Shown here: piece by piece, positions 12,418 to 13,516 of the stretch
Layout of the letters: every line of letters starts with the position of its first letter
Position numbering within the stretch: the first letter of the stretch is position 1
NCBI RefSeq assembly: GCF_027484945.1
Contig: NZ_JAIXRZ010000051.1
Location: forward strand, 16,906-80,905
Length of the DNA: 64,000 nucleotides
From: Flavobacterium sp.
GTDB taxonomy: Bacteria > Bacteroidota > Bacteroidia > Flavobacteriales > Flavobacteriaceae
Direction of reading: 5' to 3'
Translations under genes and position numbers: made by a program
Notes under the pieces: generated by a model
The model's database searches: none
Told to the model about the DNA's origin: nothing
Seen by the model: the letters and a program-made list of their open reading frames with translations, nothing else

Positions 12418-13516
12418 ATGACAAATACCGAACAAATCAAAGGTATTGTAGAACGCCTGGGTGCGTTGAGGAGGTATCTTTGACATCGATGCCAAATTAA
12501 TTGAAATCACCAATGAAGAAGAAAAAACTTTTGCGCCCGACTTTTGGAATAATGCTAAACAAGCCGAAGTAATTGTAAAAAACCTTCGTTCAAAAAAGAA
12601 ATGGGTTGATGATTTTAATAAAGCGAATAATCTTGTAGAAGAATTGCAAATCACCCATGAATTTTTTCGGGATGGTGATGCATCTGAAGCAGAATTAGAT
12701 GAGGCCTATTTACTTGCTTTTCAACAAATTGAAGACCTAGAATTTCGCAACATGCTTTCCGATGAAGGCGATAGCATGAGTGCCGTATTGCAAATAACTG
12801 CTGGCGCTGGAGGTACAGAAAGTTGTGACTGGGCATCGTTATTAATGCGTATGTATTTGATGTGGGCTGAAAAACAGGGCTACAAAATCAAAGAATTAAA
12901 TTTTCAAGAAGGAGATGTTGCCGGTATAAAAACGGTAACCCTCGAATTTGAAGGTGATTTTGCATTTGGCTACTTAAAAGGCGAAAATGGTGTTCACCGA
13001 TTGGTGCGTATTTCCCCCTTTGATAGTAACGCCAAACGGCATACTTCGTTTGCTTCTGTTTATGTATATCCCTTAGTTGACGATACCATTGATATTGAAA
13101 TCAGTCCCGCAGATATTGAAATCACAACAGCTCGTTCCAGTGGTGCTGGCGGTCAAAATGTAAATAAAGTAGAAACCAAAGTACAGTTATTGCATAAACC
13201 CACGGGAATTCAAATTCAGTGCTCAGAGACGCGTTCACAACATGACAATAGGAATCGTGCGATGCAAATGCTTCGTTCGCAATTGTATGAAATTGAATTG
13301 AAAAAACGAATGGAACAACGTGCCGATATTGAAGCAGGAAAAATGAAAATTGAATGGGGCTCGCAAATTCGCAATTACGTGATGCATCCGTATAAATTAG
13401 TAAAAGATGTTCGTACCGGACATGAAACGAGTGATGTAGATGCTGTAATGAATGGTGAAATCGACTCTTTTCTTAAAGCGTATCTAATGATGATGGGACA
13501 AAAAGAATCGGAATAA
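12418..13516 (+). CDS. prfB: Peptide chain release factor 2, with programmed +1 frameshift
   Basis: ATG at 12418, 21 codons, then in-frame TGA at 12481 within AGGAGGTATCTTTGAC. The +1 frame continues [24 protein letters not shown]... into the downstream ORF, which carries GGQ ([16 protein letters not shown]). Confidence 0.97.
12469..12484 (+). promoter_or_regulatory. prfB programmed +1 frameshift signal (AGGAGG TAT CTT TGA C)
   Basis: SD-like AGGAGG, slippery CTT, in-frame UGA followed by C; near-identical to the classical prfB site. Confidence 0.95.

Follow-up and report, generated by a model that had tools for sequence, protein, structure and literature searches.

The closest described system is the prfB gene of Flavobacterium johnsoniae, for which an identical frameshift site (AGGAGGUAUCUUUGAC) and the puzzle of its use by ribosomes with an occluded anti-Shine-Dalgarno (anti-SD) sequence were published in 2021 (PMC8710568). 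The same study found the frameshift in 523 of 726 Bacteroidia, reported its absence from Weeksellaceae with an altered anti-SD, and proposed further cis or trans elements. Frameshifting efficiency at F. johnsoniae prfB is low, as cited in passages of PMC12421855. According to passages of PMC6321510, a hairpin engineered upstream of CUUUGA stimulates the shift about 60% as strongly as the SD does in an in vitro 70S system, and no natural RF2 example is named in those passages.

We analyzed a 64,000-nucleotide stretch of Flavobacterium sp. DNA (the window) and compared its prfB locus with those of relatives. The locus has the following features.

12418 to 12483, + strand: prfB ORF0, with its ATG at 12418, 21 codons, and an in-frame TGA at 12481-12483
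12452 to 12467, + strand: candidate stem AACGC-ctgggt-GCGTT, from fold prediction, ending one base before the SD
12469 to 12474, + strand: SD-like stimulator AGGAGG, 3 nt (TAT) 5' of the slippery codon
12478 to 12484, + strand: shifty stop CTT TGA C, with P-site Leu codon CTT and a +1 slip to TTT
12482 to 13516, + strand: prfB ORF1, RF2 of 344 amino acids in the +1 frame (TIGR00020), with a TAA stop

An earlier note on this DNA had described a programmed +1 site of prfB with a perfect AGGAGG, and the sequence at 12418-12500 (ATG ... GCG TTG AGG AGG TAT CTT TGA C) is exactly as claimed. ORF1 matched the NCBIfam model TIGR00020 prfB with 467 bits, where the cutoff is 370 bits. The locus combines an ORF0 that ends in UGA, RF2 in the +1 frame, CUU-UGA-C, and an SD-like sequence 3 nt upstream, and the length of ORF0 is common to nearly all relatives in the genus. 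The C at the fourth position weakens termination, a mechanism taken from PMC8710568 and passages of PMC12421855. As the note had also said, the mechanical ORF list splits the gene, with no start for the RF2 frame before TTG 12644. This split is the sole point in favor of an assembly or sequencing indel in an ordinary in-frame prfB, an explanation that we consider vanishingly improbable since almost all Flavobacterium loci examined carry the same CTT TGA C junction; a sequencing error at prfB is refuted by these relatives. The one locus examined in the genus without the junction (L101) belongs to Flavobacterium silvaticum, where the prfB frameshift is lost and RF2 is read in frame (RVSALRKYLD).

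The AGGAGG word alone occurs at chance level in the window (13 occurrences versus 11.3 expected). The composite 16-base element AGGAGGTATCTTTGAC has one exact match there, and the only other matches have 3 mismatches. Nearly every Flavobacterium locus examined has AGGAGG. Both Arg codons of the site are AGG in 87 of 87 Flavobacterium loci, a set that was itself chosen by the AGGAGG-CTTTGAC motif on the strand read, and AGG makes up 2% of the Arg codons in the remainder of prfB. The presence of AGGAGG-CTTTGAC in the genus is far beyond chance, and the window feature is almost certainly the ordinary prfB system of autoregulation by +1 programmed frameshifting, here in a Flavobacterium. The finding in the window is not new, because the identical F. 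johnsoniae site was published, with the same puzzle, in PMC8710568. The site adds one more species to that case, and the comparison with relatives matters more.

The earlier note's description of the genome as SD-poor held for the window, where a 4-nt SD core lies upstream of 3 of the 42 long ORFs and nearby control stretches predict 3.8. These 42 ORFs stop with TAA in 33 cases, TAG in 7, and TGA in 2. The note had also pointed to the 16S 3' tail; the genome's own 16S gene was looked for in this assembly and not found, and relatives in the genus stood in for it. All Flavobacterium relatives with a complete 16S 3' end read GGAACACCTCCTTTCT, with the canonical CACCUCCUUUCU. The duplex between AGGAGG and this tail has a predicted energy of −12.9 kcal/mol. 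From published work, we infer that AGGAGG at the window site would pair with the 16S 3' tail, that the peptidyl-tRNA-Leu would slip to UUU and allow RF2 synthesis, and that feedback would act on this step. As the literature suggests for the genus, this would be classical pairing, held back by the occlusion of the anti-SD.

The genome encodes bS21. Its rpsU gene, on contig C43, has an 11-nt extended SD upstream (AAAGGAGGTGT; L001, 1650-1690), and the predicted duplex of this extended SD (AAAGGAGGTGTCC) is −24.1 kcal/mol. An extended SD before rpsU is the signature of bS21 autoregulation in Flavobacteriales (PMC9976891). Possibly, although we hold it to be rather less than probable, frameshifting in the genus is served mainly by a small pool of bS21-less ribosomes with a free anti-SD. 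This genome has both bS21 and the extended SD before rpsU, which fits such a pool, as does the observation, reportedly made by Naeem et al. in 2024, that bS21 mutants show raised prfB frameshifting. Ribosomes of this kind act on strong-SD mRNAs in F. johnsoniae, but the study that describes them limits their control to rpsU and does not mention prfB (PMC9976891).

Codons 13 to 16 of ORF0 (CGC CTT GGT GCG) are nearly frozen synonymously in the genus, with GCG in 87 of 87 loci versus a 12% background. Either the candidate stem AACGC/GCGTT or a UGCG-capped CCUUGG/UUAAGG stem could explain this constraint. The rival CCUU/AAGG stem would cover half of the SD, and the outer pairs of AACGC/GCGTT fail in some family members. 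No compensatory change was found for either stem, and the mean fold z score was only −1.1 in 32 SD-bearing sites.

An SD-bearing prfB site is present in 102 of 237 Flavobacteriaceae genera. One genome has two such sites 3.4 kb apart (G578:C25:12126 and 15479), either a duplication or an assembly artifact. The earlier note had taken the intact SD to mean that elongating ribosomes can still use the anti-SD. This reading gains support from the frozen SD in the genus and from lineages of Flavobacteriales with an altered 16S tail: UCUCA in family f5, UCUCU in family f16, CCUCA in G047, AACUCC in G038, and AUCUCC in G398. prfB is in frame in all five of these lineages (L141, L142, L173 to L176, L232, L191, L190, and L197), as expected if pairing plays a role. 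The frameshift is also lost in many lineages with a normal 16S tail. The anti-SD core has changed several times independently within the order; G364 is also among the altered cores, and prfB could be read in the others and not in G364.

Against the same reading, the note had named relatives that lack the SD and keep the frameshift, and these exist. An SD-less pattern matched 111 of 400 sampled Flavobacteriaceae genomes, or about 108 (about 27%) after removals, three matches (G630, G855, and G569) being discarded by eye as off target. The observation reported in the note is confirmed and its interpretation partly supported: the SD is conserved in the genus, yet it is not obligatory in the family because about 108 of 400 genomes keep the frameshift without it. 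SD-less sites have AGGCAC, AGGCAA, AGACAA, or similar ahead of TAT CTT TGA C. Loss of the SD through a mutated anti-SD is ruled out by CCUCC in 28 of the 28 SD-less genomes whose 16S end was found. A tree built from sequence downstream in RF2 places most SD-less sites in one clade.

The SD-less codons CGC CTT ... CTA AGG CAC are complementary (GCCTT ... AAGGC), so that codons 13 to 15 supply the 5' arm and codons 17 to 19 the 3' arm of a predicted hairpin. Counted from the slippery codon, the 3' arm spans −10 to −6, the position that the SD:anti-SD helix would take. The first four pairs are possible in 64 of the 75 distinct SD-less sites, and the mean fold z score of the real sites was −2.8. 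With the arms slid by 1 to 4 bases, four pairs formed in 0 of 75 sites in any register; with the arms dealt anew, the mean was 54 and the maximum 59 in 2,000 trials, versus the 64 observed. The complementarity could instead be a by-product of the conserved peptide RL..LR(H/Q)YL; alternatively, the true stimulation could come from the nascent peptide or from the codon in the E site. Arg-Leu...Leu-Arg codons are indeed prone to palindromes, and the peptide keeps H/Q at codon 19 and Y at codon 20, but we regard this explanation as quite improbable because shuffling the codons with the peptide kept constant gave four pairs in only 10.9%, versus 64 of 75 for the real sites. The four pairs also form in just 1 of 23 in-frame prfB genes; these control loci differ somewhat in peptide, which makes the synonymous shuffle the stronger comparison.

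Both conserved pairing and compensatory changes are present in the SD slot of the SD-less relatives. At two synonymous Arg positions that face each other in the predicted hairpin, we counted C-G in 57 sites, U-A in 8, U-G in 3, and C-A in 0. The U-A state appears on about five tree branches (L132, L333, L311/L312, L367, and L379/L380), with both changes each time, and the sisters L366 (U-G) and L367 (U-A) show the intermediate step on the tree. The tree test alone is not significant, because only two of the five independent covariation pairs lie on strongly supported branches. In L356, AGG changed to AAG together with CTT to TTA, and a 7-bp stem was kept. Many species cannot form the fifth pair (14.3-17.3).

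These changes also bear on the possibility that SD-less sites, through their retained AGG, still have a short remnant of the SD (AAGG) able to pair with CCUU, in which case the hairpin would be unneeded. The rare Arg codon AGG persists in 76 of the 96 SD-less sites, and AAGG is predicted to pair weakly with the 16S tail (−2.7 kcal/mol). We consider a residual SD unlikely. The AGA and AAG variants (L132, L333, L379, L380, and L356) are almost without tail pairing (only −0.3 kcal/mol in L132, whose site has AGA) but keep the frameshift, and they change the opposite arm in step. Moreover, CGC at codon 13, which has no part in such an SD, is found in 76 of 96 sites versus about 17% of the gene's Arg codons.

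A small group of loci keeps the frameshift with neither an SD nor a predicted hairpin: L179, L347, L362, L363, L373, and L374, which have AAC or AAT at codon 18, and L348. These sites weigh against the hairpin reading and suggest that the shifty stop by itself may be enough for some degree of frameshifting. Elsewhere, in f19, another family of the class, L251 (the same genome as L437), L256, and L434 carry GCCC ... GGGC, which stops 3 nt short of CTT; stronger stems lie slightly further upstream in L264/L436 and L433, and L261 and L435 have weak stems only. G203 (family f22) carries the variant GGCGG, for which CCGCC is a possible folding partner.

In one large clade of the family, then, the SD appears to have been lost with the frameshift kept, and a predicted hairpin sits in the helix slot and probably does the work of the helix. 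We infer this function from conserved pairing. More broadly, the sequence comparisons moderately favor the view that in this clade, and separately in family f19, the SD:anti-SD stimulator has been swapped for an mRNA:mRNA hairpin in the same or a nearby slot. That mRNA:mRNA pairing would replace mRNA:rRNA pairing is suggested by the shuffling, slid-register, and covariation results together with the precedent of the engineered hairpin. In the SD-less clade, the hairpin would refold behind a ribosome waiting at the UGA and would then pull or space the mRNA as the SD:anti-SD helix does, a mechanism supported by the in vitro effect of the engineered hairpin as given in passages of PMC6321510.

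The relatives amount to a natural experiment. Their ribosomes hide the anti-SD; some genera retain a regulator that depends on it, and others seem to have put RNA structure in its place. If this is true, prfB autoregulation in the SD-less clade would no longer depend on the anti-SD hidden by bS21, and the clade would offer a natural case of a hairpin mimicry so far built by hand. The question of prfB frameshifting in Bacteroidia becomes testable by synonymous mutations. The hairpin variant, which lies outside the window, is itself testable and possibly new. The 2024 work of Naeem et al. is said to have put prfB frameshift efficiency in F. johnsoniae at about 7% and to have found the SD-less site of Winogradskyella psychrotolerans functional in F. 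johnsoniae; that paper may already have described the SD-less class and its hairpin.

Among known systems, the F. johnsoniae site is the closest to the window site, with an identical AGGAGGUAUCUU UGA C, the same codons 18 to 22 and ORF0 length, and the same context of an occluded anti-SD; apart from the species, nothing of substance differs. E. coli prfB (AGGGGGUAUCUU UGA C) shares the order, spacing, slippery codon, stop, and fourth-position C, but it has GGGGG where the window has GGAGG, and E. coli uses the SD freely at initiation. The extended SD of rpsU resembles the prfB element as a second strong SD in an otherwise SD-poor genome, and it is present here; unlike the prfB element, it works at initiation through bS21-less ribosomes (PMC9976891). 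The SD-less sites are best compared with the engineered hairpins described in passages of PMC6321510, where a refolding mRNA hairpin just 5' of the shift site stimulates the +1 shift. The engineered stem is artificial and 12 bp long, whereas the stems at natural sites have 4 to 7 bp and are weaker, with predicted energies of −3.8 to −9 kcal/mol.
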